NCBI RefSeq assembly: GCF_001685415.1
Contig: NZ_CP014989.1
Coordinates: 2,046,001-2,110,000, forward strand
Direction of reading: 5' to 3'
Origin: Serinicoccus hydrothermalis
GTDB lineage: Bacteria; Actinomycetota; Actinomycetes; Actinomycetales; Dermatophilaceae
Length of the DNA stretch: 64,000 nt
Every line of letters starts with the position of its first letter. Position 1 is the stretch's first letter. Below are positions 14,441 to 23,793 of the stretch, piece by piece. Position numbers and translations under genes: made by a program. The notes beneath the pieces are model-generated. The model saw only the letters and a program-made list of their open reading frames with translations. It did no database searches and had not been told where the DNA came from.

Positions 14441-14913
14441 GACACCTCGAACCTTCCGGACATGTTGGTCTTCGGGGCAACTCTGCCACGTCCGCCGTCA
14501 CCGCGCTGCAGCACGTCCCCAGGGACGGAGGAGGATCACCCGGGATGACCAGGAACTCGTCATCGTCATCGGGCCTGTGGATCCTGTGGACAACAGGGCC
14601 ATGGAGGGATGTCATGGCTGGTCGGCGTGCCGATCCGGGCGCGTTCGGACTGTGTATGCCCGGTGGACACCCTGGGAGACGCGGCTCCCCGTCTGGGGAC
14701 GGACGCCGGCGGTCCCCACGGGTTCCGTCGCCGTGCACCACTCATCCCCAGCCTGACCTGCGACGATCCGCACGTCGTCCACACCCCCTGCACAGGCCGC
14801 AGCGAGGCGGGGAGGCGTCGAGGGAGCCCGGTCGTCGGGACGGGTGTGACGAAGGTGAACGCTGAGCCACAACGCACAGGGTTGTCCACAGCTGTGGACA
14901 ACGTGGGGTCGGC
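14441..14913. other. Putative oriC in the dnaA-dnaN intergenic region
   Basis: This 473-bp gap has no gene. Exact DnaA boxes (TTGTCCACA or its complement) are at 14585-14593, 14882-14890 and 14893-14901. Near matches are at 14576-14584 (TGTGGATCC) and 14775-14783 (TCGTCCACA). The position between dnaA and dnaN is where actinobacterial origins have been mapped. There are fewer boxes than in Streptomyces and no obvious AT-rich unwinding stretch, so the origin may also use the boxes upstream of dnaA at 16469-16501. Confidence 0.65.
14881..14902. repeat. Perfect 22-bp palindrome made of two inverted DnaA boxes
   Basis: GTTGTCCACAG meets its exact reverse complement with no spacer. Each arm is one DnaA box, and the palindrome ends 11 bp from the dnaA stop codon. 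It can bind two DnaA molecules head to head, and as RNA it would form a hairpin at the end of dnaA mRNA. Confidence 0.85.
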
Positions 14914-16419
14914 TCAGCGCTGGGAGGCGCGGCGGATGCTGCCGGTGAGCTCGGCGATCTGGTCGTAGAGCGCGCGACGCTCACCGATCTGAGCCCGGAT
15001 CTTGCGCTCGGCGTGCATGACGGTGGTGTGGTCCCGGCCGCCGAACTCCTGCCCGATCTTCGGCAGCGAGAGGTCGGTCAGCTCCCGGCACAGGTACATC
15101 GCCACCTGGCGGGCGTTGACCAGGGTGCGTGACCGGGAGGTGCCGCAGAGCTCGTCGATCGTGATCTGGAAGTACTCGGAGACCTCGCGGATGATCGTCG
15201 AGACGGTGATCTGGGCGGTGTCGCTGCCCGGCACGATGTCCTTGAGGACGTGCGCCGCCAGGTCGGCGTCCGCGCGCTGCGAGGACAGCGAGGCGAAGGC
15301 CGTGACCCGGATGAGGGCACCCTCCAGCTCGCGGATGTTGGTCGAGATGCGGCTGGCGATGTGCTCCAGGACCTCGTCCGGCAGCTGCATACCCTCCTGC
15401 GCCGCCTTCTTGCGCAGGATGGCGATGCGGGTCTCCAGGTCAGGGGGCTGCACATCGGTGAGTAGACCCCACTCGAACCGGCTCCGCATCCGCTCGGCGA
15501 AGCCGGAGAGCCGCTTGGGCGGCTGGTCGGAGGTGATGACGACCTGCTTCTCGCTGTTGTGCAGCGTGTTGAAGGTGTGGAAGAACTCCTCGACCGTCTG
15601 CTCCTTGCCCTGCAGGAACTGGATGTCGTCGACGAGGAGGAAGTCCACGTTGCGGTAGCGCCGCTGGAACGCCCCGGCCTTGTCGTCGCGGATCGAGTTG
15701 ATGAAGTCGTTGGTGAACTCCTCGGAGTTCACGTAGCGCACCCGCACCCCCGGGTACAGCTTGCGGGCGTAGTGCCCGATGGCGTGCAGCAGGTGGGTCT
15801 TGCCCAGACCGGACTCGCCGTAGATGAACAGCGGGTTGTAGGCGCGCGCCGGGGACTCGGCGACCGCCAGCGACGCGGCGTGCGCGAACCGGTTGGAGGG
15901 GCCGGACACGAAGGTGTCGAAGGTGTACTTCGGGTTGAGCCGGGCCTCGTCGGCCGCCCCGGTCACGGCCGGACCGGCCGGGGTGGCCGGCCGGGGTATG
16001 CCGTTGGTCGCCCTGGACCGGGCGTCGTCGGGGGCAGGGTCGGCGGAGGTGCTGGAGCTGGGTGCCGAGGCTGGCCTGGTGAGGGACTCGCGGGTGGTGG
16101 CGCCGCCCGACGTGTCGTCGGCCTCGTCGTCCGCCTCCTCCTCGACCCGCTCGCGCAGGGCGTCGTCGACGGTGATGGCCACCCGGATCTCGAGGTCGAG
16201 CTCGCGCGACAGGCCGTCCTCGATCGGCTGGCGCAGGCTGGTCTCGAGCATCTCCTTGGTGTGCGGGTACGGCACCGCAAGCAGCACGGTCGTGTCGATG
16301 ACCCCCACCATCCGGGTGAGCTGCAGGAAGGCACGCTCCCGGGCGTTGATACCCGCGGTCTCCAGCTGGTCGACCACCCGGGCCCAGACGTCCTCGGAGG
16401 TGGTCGTGGGCTGGGACAT
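14914..16419 (-). CDS. dnaA: Chromosomal replication initiator DnaA
   Basis: A 501-residue initiator. Domain I is about 1-90 ([13 protein letters not shown]...). Domain II, about 90-160, is a disordered linker rich in Glu, Ser, Thr and Pro. The AAA+ domain carries Walker A GESGLGKT (201-208), Walker [12 protein letters not shown] and sensor motifs. Domain IV has the box-binding HTH with the signature [15 protein letters not shown]. The start ATG 16419 gives [12 protein letters not shown]; the frame is open further up but without homology. It is divergent from rpmH, with DnaA boxes at 16469-16501 in the gap, consistent with autoregulation. Confidence 0.98.
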
Positions 16420-16824
16420 GGGTGGGCTCAGCCCCTCTCGGAAACGGACCGGACGTCGACAAGAACAGTTGTCCACAAAGTTGTCCACAGGGTGTGGACG
16501 AAGCGGTGGAGATCTGCCGGAAGCGCCGACGCTAACAAGCGTGACCGCGGCCCCGCAAGTGACCGGTTCGACCGGATCCGTGCCTCCTCGGCGTGTCGCC
16601 GCCGAACCTGCTGATCGGGTCGGTGAGGATGCCCGGTTCGGGTGTCTCGGCCGCTGGACGCTCGCGCGTTTGACCGGTGTGGACCCGCTCCCGTACCGTG
16701 GAGCAGGCCGTTTTTCGGCCGCTTTCGCCTGCCCGTGCAGCGTCCTCGTTGACGATGACGGGCTTCCGTTGGCGGCCGAGCCGGCATCACCGACCCGTCC
16801 GTCACCACCCCGACCGGAGCACCG
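16420..16824. promoter_or_regulatory. dnaA-rpmH divergent promoter region with DnaA boxes
   Basis: This 405-bp gap carries no gene. Exact DnaA boxes lie at 16469-16477 and 16481-16489 and a near match TGTGGACGA at 16493-16501, 50-80 bp upstream of the dnaA start. They are placed to autoregulate dnaA or to be part of the origin. The rpmH promoter lies further right. The stretch 16506-16665 shows no other feature. Confidence 0.75.
16670..16699 (+). promoter_or_regulatory. rpmH-operon promoter
   Basis: TTGACC (16670-16675) and TACCGT (16694-16699) are 18 bp apart, a good housekeeping promoter. The predicted start is near 16706, where GGCCG-TTTTT-CGGCC (16706-16720) would form a small hairpin at the 5' end of the leader. 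Confidence 0.65.
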
Positions 16825-18784: not shown

Positions 18785-20114
<1,330 letters not shown>

Positions 20115-20140
20115 CCCATCCTTCGCGGTGTCGCGATGGG
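20115..20140. terminator. Candidate hairpin between convergent rsmG and parB
   Basis: CCCATC (20115-20120) and GATGGG (20135-20140) pair, with a CGCG/CGCG inner stem separated by a small bulge. It fills the only gap between the two convergent genes. It lacks a T tract, so it is a modest bidirectional terminator candidate. Confidence 0.45.
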
Positions 20141-20145
20141 CGCTC

Positions 20146-21258
20146 TCAGTCTGCTGAAGCGCTCTGCTCCAGCAGGTCCAGGATGCGGTCCAGGTCGTCC
20201 TTGCCGGCGAACTCGATGACCATCTTGCCCTTGCGCCGACCCATCGAGACCTGCACGCGGGTGTCGAGGCGTCCGGACCAGGTGTCGGCCACCTCGGCCA
20301 GGTCGGGCGCGGGGACGGCGGCGCCACGCCGGCGGCGGGGCGGCGCGTCGTCCGAGCCGAGGGTGATGATCTCCTCGACCGAGCGCACGGACAGCCCTTC
20401 GGCGACGATGCGCTGGGCCATCCGCTCCATGGCCGCCCCGTCGGGCAGCCCGAGCAGTGCGCGGGCGTGGCCGGCGCTGAGCACGCCGGAGGCCACGCGG
20501 CGCTGCACCATCGGCGGCAGCTTCAGCAGCCGGATGGTGTTGCTGATCTGCGGGCGGGACCGGCCGATGCGTCCGGCGAGCTCGTCGTGGGTGCACCCGA
20601 AGTCCTCGAGCAGCTGCTGGTAGGCCGCTGCCTCCTCCAAGGGGTTCAGCTGCGCTCGGTGGAGGTTCTCCAGCAGCGCGTCCCGGAGCATGTGCTCGTC
20701 CTCGGTGGCGCGCAGGATGGCGGGGATCGTCGCCTGGTCGGCGGCCTGCGAGGCACGTAGCCGTCGCTCGCCCATGACCAGCTCGTAGGCGGGCGCTCCC
20801 TCCTCCACCTCCTGCGGCGGGGTCCTGCGGACGACGACCGGCTGGAGGACCCCCAGCTCCCGGATGCTGGCCACCAGCTCGGCGAGCTCGTCCTCGTCGA
20901 AGACCTCGCGAGGCTGCCGCGGGTTGGGACGGATGTGGTCCACGGGGATCTCCACGAAGACCGCACCCGGGACCGGGGCGAGCGAGGAGTCGTCCTGCTC
21001 GATGTTTCCCGTGGAACCAGAGGTGACCGTGCTACCGGTGGGGCTGGTGGTGTCGTTGGCGTCCGGAACGTGAGCGGTGTCCGTCTTCCCCACGGCCTCC
21101 GGGAGACCAGTGTTTCCCGTGGAACGTCCTTCCTCTGTCGGCGTCTCCTGCGCGGCACGCGAGAAGAACACGTCCCGGGGACGCTCCCGCTCACTCTCGG
21201 CCGCCGGAGGGATCAGGGCTCCGAGGCCTCGTCCCAGACCTCGACGTCGTTCGCTCAT
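20146..21258 (-). CDS. parB: Chromosome partitioning protein ParB
   Basis: A 370-residue ParB CTPase clamp. It starts [16 protein letters not shown], the ParA-stimulating N-terminal motif. Residues 20-98 are a disordered linker containing two copies of STGN (46-49, 82-85), each encoded by a parS-like sequence. The CTP-binding domain includes [12 protein letters not shown] and [17 protein letters not shown], followed by the [23 protein letters not shown] and a C-terminal dimerisation domain. RBS AAGGAG. Its ATG overlaps the parA stop. It acts in origin segregation together with ParA. Confidence 0.96.
21003..21018. other. parS-like ParB-binding site 1 (inside parB)
   Basis: TGTTTCCCGTGGAACC differs from the consensus TGTTTCACGTGAAACA at a few positions, one in the centre and one in the right arm. 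On the minus strand it encodes part of the ParB linker around STGN (82-85). Confidence 0.6.
21111..21126. other. parS-like ParB-binding site 2 (inside parB)
   Basis: TGTTTCCCGTGGAACG has the same 14-base core as site 1, 108 bp away, so the frame is kept and STGN is encoded again (46-49). Confidence 0.6.
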
Positions 21259-22298
21259 GCCGACTCCTTGGTCGTGCGCATCTCGGCGGCGGCCTCGGCA
21301 TAGGAGAGGGCGCCGCTACTGGCCGGATCGTAGGTGATGACGGTCTCCCCGTGGCTGGGCGCCTCGCTGATGCGGACGGACCGGGGGATGGCGGTGCGGA
21401 GCACGCGGTCCCCGAAGTGCTCCCGGACCTGCTCGGCCACGTCGGAGGCCAGCCTCGTGCGTCCGTCGAACATCGTCAGCAGGATGGTGGACACCTGCAG
21501 GTCGGAGTTGAGGTGCTGCTGGATGAGCTCGACGTTCTTCAGCAGCTGGCTCAACCCTTCGAGCGCGTAGTACTCGCACTGGATGGGGATGAGCAGCTCG
21601 CGCGCGGCGACCAGGGCGTTGACCGTCAGCAGTCCCAGGCTCGGCGGGCAGTCGATGACGACGAGGTCGACCTCCTGCGCCTGCCCCTCGAGGTAGGTGG
21701 CGAGTGCGCGCCGTAGACGGTTCTCCCGGGCGACGAGCGGGACCAGCTCGATCTCCGCGCCGGCGAGGTCGATGGTGGCGGGCGCGCACGAGAGCCCGAG
21801 GACCTGCGGACAGGGCTGCACGACGTCGGCCAGCGGAACTCCCTCGATGAGGACGTCGTAGATGCCGGCCGTCCCGCTGGAGTGCGGGATGGACAGGGCG
21901 GTGCTGGCATTGCCCTGCGGGTCCATGTCGATGACGAGCACCCGTAGGCCGCTCTCCGCCATCGCAGCCGCCAGGTTCACGGCGGACGTGGTCTTGCCGA
22001 CGCCGCCCTTCTGGTTGGAGACGGTGATGATGCGGGTCCCGGTCCATGGTCGCCGTGCGGGCACGTCGTCGAGCTGGGCGATCGTGGTCGTTTCCCGTGA
22101 AACATCGTCGGCAGACCCAGGTGCCTCGGCCGACAGATTGTTCACCCGCTCCGTTGTTTCCCGTGAAACGTGACTGTCGCGCGCCTCCGCTCGCCTGCCG
22201 GCGGGCCAGCCCACCGGGGAGGACGGGTGGTCCTGCCAGGTGACGGGCGGGACCGAGGACGAGAGGGGCCATCCCAGGGGCTGAGCATCCGATGTCAT
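21255..22298 (-). CDS. parA: Chromosome partitioning ATPase ParA (Soj)
   Basis: A 347-residue Walker-type ATPase that drives origin segregation on the nucleoid. The deviant Walker A is KGGVGKTT (97-104), with the DMDPQGNAS motif (Walker A') and [11 protein letters not shown] (Walker B). The first 85 residues are a non-conserved extension with two VSRET copies encoded by parS sites. The start at ATG 22298 is preferred to the upstream GTG-type extension, but the RBS is weak and the true start could lie further inside. It is coupled to parB by an ATGA overlap. No cwlM gene lies between it and trxA. Confidence 0.93.
22089..22104. other. parS site 3 (inside parA)
   Basis: CGTTTCCCGTGAAACA has a 14-base core GTTTCCCGTGAAAC with one mismatch to the consensus GTTTCACGTGAAAC. 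On the coding strand it encodes VSRET (ParA 66-70). Confidence 0.8.
22155..22170. other. parS site 4 (inside parA)
   Basis: TGTTTCCCGTGAAACG carries the same one-mismatch core as site 3, exactly 66 bp (22 codons) away. It encodes the second VSRET (ParA 44-48). Confidence 0.8.
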
Positions 22299-22356
22299 GA
22301 GGGGTCCATCATCGCTGATCCAGGCCGACCGGACCAAGCCCGACGCACCACGCAAA

Positions 22357-22399
22357 CAGCCGTCCACAGGGTTGTGGACAAACCCCGTGGACGGCTGTG
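22357..22399 (-). terminator. Long hairpin with embedded DnaA boxes between trxA and parA
   Basis: ACAGCCGTCCAC (22357-22368) and GTGGACGGCTGT (22388-22399) form a perfect 12-bp stem. GGGTT and AACCC extend it inside with one mismatched pair between. Exact DnaA boxes (TGTGGACAA) lie in the loop at 22373-22381 and across the right arm at 22396-22404. It begins 28 bp past the trxA stop, a fitting place for a terminator; DnaA binding is a second possible role. Confidence 0.65.
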
Positions 22400-22426
22400 G
22401 ACAACCGCTGACGCTGTCGCTGAGTG

Positions 22427-22750
22427 TCAGGCGGTGTACGGCTCCAGCTCGGAGGCGAGCTTCTTCTTCGGCAGCGCCCCGACGATGGTCTTGACGACCT
22501 CACCACCTGAGTAGACGTGCATCGTCGGGATCCCGGTGATGCCGTAGCTCCCGGTGGTCTCGGGGTTCTCGTCGGTGTTGAGCTTGACCACCTTGAGCTT
22601 GTCGCCCCACTCCTCGGAGAGCTCCTCGAGGATGGGTGCGATCATCTTGCACGGCCCGCACCAGGGGGCCCAGAAGTCCACCAGGACGGGCCCGTCGTGC
22701 TGCAGCACGTCCTCGGTGAAGGTCGCGTCTGTCGTATTGGTGATGCTCAT
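22427..22750 (-). CDS. trxA: Thioredoxin
   Basis: A 107-residue thioredoxin with the active site [10 protein letters not shown] (Cys31, Cys34), the cis-proline in [11 protein letters not shown], and a normal length. It reduces disulfides in cytoplasmic proteins and is itself reduced by TrxB, encoded just upstream with an ATGA overlap. This is the sigM-trxB-trxA arrangement of actinobacteria (trxC in M. tuberculosis). Confidence 0.97.
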
Positions 22751-23793
22751 GAATCTCCTTCTCTCGCAACGGATGTCGTGACAAGCTGTGGTTCGTCCAG
22801 GGTGTCGTCGAGGGCGGCCAGGTAGCGCTCGGCGTCGAGGGCCGCGGCGCACCCGGTGCCGGCTGCGGTGATGGCCTGCCGGTAGGTGTGGTCGACCAGG
22901 TCACCGCACGCGAAGACGCCGGGGACGTCGGTGGCCGTGCCGCGACCCTGGACGACGACGTAACCCTCGGGGTCGAGCTCGACCTGGCCACGGACGAGCT
23001 CGTTGCGCGGGTCGTGGCCGATCGCGATGAACAGGCCGGTCGCCTCGACCTCCCGGGTCTCCCCGGTGCGGGTGTCGCTCAGCGTCACCGTGCTCAGCTT
23101 GGGCGTGCCGTGCAGCTCGGCGACCGCGGAGTTCCACGCGAAACCGATCTTCGCGTCGGACCGGGCCCGCTCGGCCATGATGCTGCTCGCCCGCAGCTCG
23201 TCGCGGCGGTGCACCACGGTGACGGACCGGGCGAACCGGCTGAGGAAGGTGGCCTCCTCCATCGCGGAGTCACCGCCCCCGACGACCAGGATGTCCTGGT
23301 CGCGGAAGAAGGCACCGTCGCAGGTCGCGCACCACGAGACACCGTGGCCGGAGAGCTCCTGCTCGCGCGGGATCCCCAGCTCGCGGTAGGCCGAGCCCAT
23401 CGCCAGGATCACCGCGCGGGCCTCGTGGACCGTGCCGTCGGCGTCCGTCACGCGCTTGACCGGGCCGGTCAGGTCGACCTCGACGACGTCGTCCCGGACC
23501 AGCTCGGCACCGAAGCGCTCGGCCTGCTCGCGCATGTCCATCATGAGCTGGGGGCCGAGGATCCCCTCGGGGAACCCGGGGAAGTTCTCGACCTCGGTCG
23601 TGTTCATGAGCGCCCCGCCGGCGGTGACCGACCCCTCGAAGACGAGGGGTGCGAGATTGGCCCTCGCGGCGTAGACCGCAGCCGTGTAGCCCGCTGGACC
23701 GGACCCGATGACGATGACCTCCCGCAGCGCAGGGGTCGCGTCGTCGCCGCCGGGGGCGGGACCGCCGATGCCGGAGATCAGGTCGATGCTCAT
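22747..23793 (-). CDS. trxB: Thioredoxin-disulfide reductase
   Basis: A 348-residue FAD/NADPH flavoenzyme. The FAD motif is [18 protein letters not shown] (about 26-43), the redox-active motif is SWCATCDG, the NADPH motif is [13 protein letters not shown], and the C-terminal FAD motif is [27 protein letters not shown]. The start ATG 23793 has GGAAGG upstream. It is probably part of the SigM-linked oxidative/envelope stress group; a 126-bp gap with possible promoter separates it from the anti-sigma gene. Confidence 0.97.

Follow-up and report, generated by a model that had tools for sequence, protein, structure and literature searches.

The parA-parB locus of Serinicoccus hydrothermalis raises the question of what form a parS site can take when it lies inside a gene. 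Within the window, by which we mean the whole 64,000-nucleotide stretch of DNA that was analysed, four parS-like sites fall in the 5′ coding parts of the two genes, and none of them is canonical. The genes and sites are as follows, with ParA residues counted from the ATG at 22298.

20146..21258, minus strand: parB, 370 aa, with a GLGRGL N-terminal motif and ParB_N, HTH_ParB and ParB_C domains
21255..22298, minus strand: parA, 347 aa, with a ParA/MinD-type ATPase domain (Pfam AAA_31, 1.1e-56, at residues 88-269)
22155..22170, minus strand: parS-like site 1, in parA; coding strand CGTTTCACGGGAAACA; codons GTT TCA CGG GAA ACA, giving VSRET at ParA 44-48
22089..22104, minus strand: parS-like site 2, in parA; coding strand TGTTTCACGGGAAACG; VSRET at ParA 66-70
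21111..21126, minus strand: parS-like site 3, in parB; coding strand CGTTCCACGGGAAACA; nGT TCC ACG GGA AAC, giving STGN at ParB 46-49
21003..21018, minus strand: parS-like site 4, in parB; coding strand GGTTCCACGGGAAACA; STGN at ParB 82-85, in the same frame as site 3

The adjoining genes have the makeup of a ParABS system, a ParA-type ATPase beside a ParB with ParB_N, HTH and C-terminal domains (Pfam), and the nearest named relatives, with ParB proteins 66-71% identical, are Serinicoccus and Ornithinimicrobium of the order Micrococcales. The context of dnaA (14914-16413; Bac_DnaA, 1.2e-73) places the sites near the probable oriC: DnaA-box-like sequences surround dnaA at 14585-14893 and 16469-16481, 4.5-7.6 kb from the sites. 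Two more DnaA-box-like sequences, TGTGGACAA, occur at 22373 and 22396, between trxA and parA. Separately, within 19383-23793, parA-parB has an inverted orientation with respect to the flanking genes, with rsmG (GidB) pointing toward parB and trxA/trxB in line with parA. Among the 200 comparative loci described below, 12 were counted as inverted, 10 on the evidence of both neighbours and 2 on that of rsmG only, and every one of them belongs to the window's genus; at least one neighbour indicated the usual order in 177 and 11 were left undetermined; the inversion implies at least 4 changes on the tree, and the sites lie inside the inverted genes.

To the original prediction, which had reported four parS-like sites in the 5′ parts of parA and parB, each pair in one frame and writing VSRET twice in ParA and STGN twice in ParB, the sequence conforms: all four 14-mers are present (21004-21017, 21112-21125, 22090-22103 and 22156-22169), they read GTTYCACGGGAAAC on the coding strand, and the translations agree. 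More specifically, the coding strand carries GTTTCACGGGAAAC in the parA sites (22156, 22090) and GTTCCACGGGAAAC in the parB sites (21112, 21004). Each site is one mismatch from GTTYCACGTGRAAC, and the four cluster within 1.2 kb. The odd C had been assigned to position 5 of the core; it in fact occupies position 6 when the 14-mer is numbered (position 7 in the 16-mer). Read on the coding strand, this C6 change becomes a G at position 9 (G9; CACGGG). We call such sites, with one arm intact, one-armed. The prediction had also placed the sites in disordered N-terminal regions, and AlphaFold models agree to the extent that low pLDDT can be read as disorder: the ParA tail of about 85 residues has low values, below 50 over residues 5-81, as does the ParB linker (32-90, below 50), which contains both parB sites. 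The N-terminal parts of ParA and ParB that hold the sites are thus probably disordered.

These sites stand out in the whole genome. Exact matches to GTTYCMCGKGRAAC, a search pattern that also covers canonical parS, occur at four places in the 3,597,394-base genome (one contig, 3.6 Mb), as compared to 0.17 expected from base composition and 0 genome-wide for the reversed pattern. All four are inside parA or parB, a distribution that leaves standing the original proposal, which a similar motif density far from the origin was to count against. Canonical parS was found nowhere in the genome, and no exact canonical or one-armed match lies outside parAB. When up to two mismatches were allowed, the window gave 10 strand-wise matches (5 places, each counted on the two strands), whereas 100 shuffles averaged 0.26 and never exceeded 2. 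One-mismatch places elsewhere in the genome number 3, as compared to 4 for the reversed-pattern control, and are therefore taken as chance level. A near-site in trxB (23131..23144, minus strand, GTTTCGCGTGGAAC, peptide FAWN) was considered as a fifth site and rejected, since such matches are at chance level genome-wide and the TrxB peptide is common to relatives; it has counterparts in loci L010, L026, L116 and L149. In L102 the TrxB peptide is FTWN instead of FAWN, and its DNA, within the matched enzyme domain, is an exact canonical site. With no further recognisable parS in the genome, it is a reasonable inference from these matches that the four sites form a candidate nucleation zone for ParB.

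To place the sites in a comparative setting we collected 210 parAB loci: 80 from titled sequence records, 30 from the window's genus (the genomes with a match among 31 searched, the window's included, one with a partial parB) and 100 from the order (the best 100 of 147 genomes with a ParB match, after the window's own). ParB was found in 210/210 and ParA in 209/210, and dropping 10 loci with identical ParB C-terminal 250 residues left 200 non-redundant loci. Only sites within one mismatch were counted; such a counted site is present in parA of 155 loci, in parB of 63 and in at least one of the two genes of 170. A site was assigned to parA if it fell in the ATPase domain's open frame, the start being unfixed; 18 canonical and 6 other sites lie inside the matched core. 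Frame counts leave out single mismatches besides C6 and G9 (27 in parA, 5 in parB, 57 outside, 1 upstream of parB). Sites in rsmG, jag, trxA and trxB, considered as a further test of the effect of reading frame, fell inside the matched domain in 11 cases, too small a number for that purpose, and most rsmG sites precede the matched domain, where translation is unsure.

This collection indicates that the DNA and not the peptide is the conserved element. Before the conserved domain, V[SP]R[EG]T peptides number 312 in the 200 loci (267 ParA, 45 ParB), and their synonymous bases are nearly invariant: base 3 is T in 308, base 12 is A in 310, base 6 is A in 281, C in 30 and G in 1, and base 9 is T in 287, G in 19, C in 4 and A in 2. 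Peptide copies and parS-type bases therefore co-occur almost always in related parA and parB genes. In nine window genes, parA included, GTT makes up 2.3% of Val codons and GAA 4.6% of Glu codons, so that VSRET would be written in parS-type codons with a chance of about 2e-4. The claim that the DNA site dictates the peptide thus holds well for VSRET, which hardly ever occurs without a site, uses rare codons and has its synonymous bases frozen. For STGN the same claim stands in part: of the 41 [FS]T[GW]N peptides from the N-terminal parts of ParB, 37 are sites, but 4 have no site within one mismatch, and the codon argument is weaker, with a chance of 0.01 in the same nine genes. The peptide moreover shifts with the frame while the DNA stays (VSRET, VPRGT, F/STGN, STWN, FHVK), and when 25 ParB sequences were aligned, the linkers could not be matched up and the sites fell at different places in them. 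Because the synonymous bases are frozen against codon usage, conservation of the DNA motif rather than of the peptide is well supported. In the ParB linker of locus L095 (near locus 1540), units of the form GSTGN/GSTGD recur; a one-armed parS codes for one of them and GTTCCACAGGAAAC for another, a pattern that looks like a site duplication followed by decay.

Why, then, do the parB sites depart from the palindrome? Depending on frame, an A-type canonical palindrome reads V-S-R-E-T, F-T-stop-N or F-H-V-K. Relatives usually use GTT-TCA-CGT-GAA-AC (VSRET), in which the palindrome is harmless (parA of 152/200 loci; parB of 33 loci, outside the genus). In the frame of the window's parB, canonical GTTTCACGTGAAAC reads TTC-ACG-TGA, a stop, and at site 3 T for G at position 9 would turn the GGA codon into TGA. 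The original account of the deviation was therefore right that it exists but missed its cause in parB, where the commonest canonical bases make a TGA stop. Indeed, across the 200 loci parB sites in frame 0 are canonical in 51 of 53 cases (1 C6, 1 G9), as compared to 34 G9 sites (GGA), 3 canonical G-type sites (TGG, STWN) and no C6 in the TGA frame (G9 in TGA frame versus frame 0, Fisher P 4e-20; Fisher and hypergeometric P values here and below ignore shared ancestry, related species not being independent samples). One further parB site is in the third frame. Neither CGA nor AGA was seen in TGA-frame parB sites within one mismatch in the 200 loci; with GGA or TGG, these sites escape the stop. 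The upstream GLG[RK]G[LI] motif, sought by regular expression, was missing for 4/34 TGA-frame G9, 14/51 frame-0 canonical and 0/3 TGG sites.

In parA, frame 0 holds 228 canonical, 29 C6, 18 G9 and 27 other sites; the TGA frame adds 2, each with TGG, and the third frame 6. A control within the same genomes comes from the 26 loci whose parB has TGA-frame G9 sites: there, parB sites are G9 in 34/34 cases, as compared to 12 G9, 13 C6 and 22 canonical among 47 parA sites, 7 others being set aside (Fisher P 5e-13). In the window's genus, 21/30 loci have a parB site within one mismatch, in the frame nGT-TTC-ACG-TGA-AAC, and 28/28 such sites are changed to GGA. Similarly, outside the genus the TGA frame holds 6 G9 and 3 TGG sites in 8 loci, as compared to 1 G9 of 53 in frame 0 (P 9e-6). 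On a FastTree tree of ParA and ParB the TGA-frame G9 state requires at least 9 changes; when parB TGA-frame sites were compared with one-armed parA sites in independent pairs on the tree, only 4 pairs were supported, which gave the comparison no power. That TGA-frame sites never contain TGA is a tautology inside an open frame; the existence of such sites is informative, as are their use of GGA, among single changes, with no CGA or AGA in parB, and the greater freedom of parA in these genomes. Since parA sites run no risk of a stop, their deviation must have another cause, tolerance or drift. GC drift was rejected as the cause of one-armed parA sites, to which locus GC is unrelated (152 loci, Spearman 0.08, P 0.32); for the window's parA variants our guess is tolerance plus drift.

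Whatever their cause, the changes spare one arm. The 29 loci with one-armed VSRET-type sites contain 66 such peptides, 30 with C6 and 19 with G9, and the two never occur together (0/66 versus 8.6 expected, hypergeometric P 5e-7). The double form GTTYCCCGGGRAAC is absent from the 1.73 Mb of loci, and the double-C site GTTCCCCGGGAAAC was found at least once in whole order genomes, in G054, on a contig other than that of its parB. The DNA-reading residues of the window's ParB are R235, T241, K246 and G263 (aligned to Caulobacter 173/179/184/201), or RTKG. In Caulobacter the RTKG variant was promiscuous and bound several different sites, and a K at either 179 or 184 was described as permissive (Jalal et al. 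2020, PMC7383237). K or R occupies 184 in 57/57 loci with a one-armed site and in 132/135 canonical-only loci, and therefore allows but does not cause the one-armed change; a different reading head in one-armed loci was rejected, as the residues do not separate the two classes.

Many elements of this arrangement have precedents. The chromosomal parS consensus is TGTTNCACGTGAAACA (PMC4409726), and the window resembles known chromosomal ParABS systems in its 14-16 bp palindromes clustered near oriC and its parA and parB with the usual domains, but differs in that each of the four sites has one C6 arm (G9 on the coding strand) with no canonical copy in the genome. Thermus thermophilus ParBc binds parSc, TGTTTCCCGTGAAACA, specifically in EMSA (PMC4409726; the site is tabulated in a review, PMC7022226); this site shares the one-armed core and lies inside a gene, gidB, but it is single, unlike the four in the window's par genes, and the portion of that paper available to us notes no link to reading frame. 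Sites inside par genes are likewise known from the parA coding region of M. bovis BCG (PMC2346475) and from B. subtilis, where parS-359 is inside parB (PMC4442127). Unlike those of the window, the M. bovis BCG sites were found with the perfect palindrome, and the available text mentions neither in-gene repeats nor a frame effect (PMC2346475). In C. glutamicum, a parS is within trpCF and a single parS suffices (PMC7083940). PMC12207404 was set aside as a case of parS in parB, the relevant phrase in the available text concerning cloning. The C6 base also recalls the Noc binding site, NBS, which differs from parS at positions 1 and 6, with C6 read by Noc R201 (PMC7383237). However, NBS has A1 and C6 in both arms, whereas in the window every site has G1 in its two arms and A6 in one of them, and whereas Noc has Q173, K179, K184 and R201, the window's ParB is R, T, K and G, retaining R173 and G201. 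Mismatched parS sites are already in print as well (PMC7022226, PMC4368675). P. aeruginosa ParB favoured sites that kept one arm intact over those altered in both; the integrity of the CACGTG core matters there too, and a site with two core changes in one arm is bound less well (PMC4368675). The CACGGG of the window sites breaks that core, which counts against the one-armed reading. In the open-access literature we found no frame rule for parS, and no paper using VSRET as a word or joining parS with coding-frame or codon terms. Thus parS inside parA or parB and this one-armed variant in Thermus are already in print.

We consider it likely, from the placement and form of the sites, that the four are the chromosome's ParB loading sites, and that reading frame together with a permissive ParB (RTKG) gave one-armed parS, which replaced canonical parS here. 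The predicted parS would lie within the segments of parA and parB that code for the probably disordered N-terminal regions. Through its permissive lysine or arginine at 184, ParB would tolerate a single change in one arm, so that a one-armed site with one intact GTTYCAC half would still load ParB. Once ParB worked on such sites, synonymous changes in parA (CGT to CGG, TCA to TCC) would be tolerated too, and in genomes like that of Serinicoccus hydrothermalis the canonical site would then have been lost altogether. The four sites, within 1.2 kb and less than 8 kb from the DnaA-box-like sequences around dnaA, would be the whole centromere. ParB would be expected to bind the one-armed GTTTCACGGGAAAC and GTTCCACGGGAAAC close to canonical GTTTCACGTGAAAC, and the double-C site GTTTCCCGGGAAAC much more weakly.

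Several other explanations have to be weighed against this one. The ParB of this clade might have switched to prefer an asymmetric site, the frame match in parB being a side effect. Sites were listed individually for 16 genus genomes (15 of the 30 others besides the window's, some of them drafts): 9 have only one-armed sites, 4 both kinds and 3 only canonical, as such a switch might produce, and the 9 suggest that ParABS there, if parS-based at all, must use one-armed sites. The one-armed share in parA, 25/47 in loci with TGA-frame G9 versus 22/228 in other loci, points the same way. We nevertheless regard a switch as unlikely: canonical sites persist in parA of those same loci (22/47), the reading residues are those of canonical-only loci, and loci L112, L132 and L200, from other families, have TGA-frame G9 sites beside otherwise canonical ones. 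The two orientations in parA (13 C6, 12 G9) further argue against a fixed polarity.

Alternatively, the sites could be decayed relics, with the real centromere elsewhere or of another sequence. None of the four is canonical and parS changes lower affinity in P. aeruginosa (PMC4368675), yet this explanation seems highly improbable, since the changes in VSRET-type sites are mainly C6 or G9 (30 and 19 of 312), with few other synonymous changes and never both, which does not resemble decay; the rest of the genome holds no exact canonical or one-armed match, and the same variant is bound in Thermus (PMC4409726). We give just as little credence to selection on the peptides themselves, for example as a short linear motif in the ParA and ParB tails, with the DNA likeness secondary. 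GTT at 308 of 312 positions despite its rarity among Val codons, peptides that vary with frame over constant DNA, and sites at differing places in the non-aligning linkers of 25 ParBs all speak against it, even though VSRET-type peptides are found repeatedly in the order's ParA tails (267 among the 200 loci) and 4 of the 41 [FS]T[GW]N peptides lack a site.

Returning to one-armed parS shaped by frame and a permissive ParB, we lean, with less assurance than for the sites themselves, toward a broader reading of these sequences as a clash between the genetic code and the centromere: the TGA frame would force a one-armed parB site, a permissive ParB would accept it, and whole genomes would lose the canonical centromere, so that the par genes would be the physical centromere and the linker peptides its by-products. 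This would give a plain rule for where in a gene parS may sit, and in what form. It would also make these genomes a natural experiment on ParB's need for a palindrome, with one intact arm and a set change in the other. Motif searches for the exact canonical site would report no centromere here, nor in 8 of the 15 relatives listed from the genus, and protein tails dictated by DNA function would be a caution on reading meaning into conserved linker peptides.
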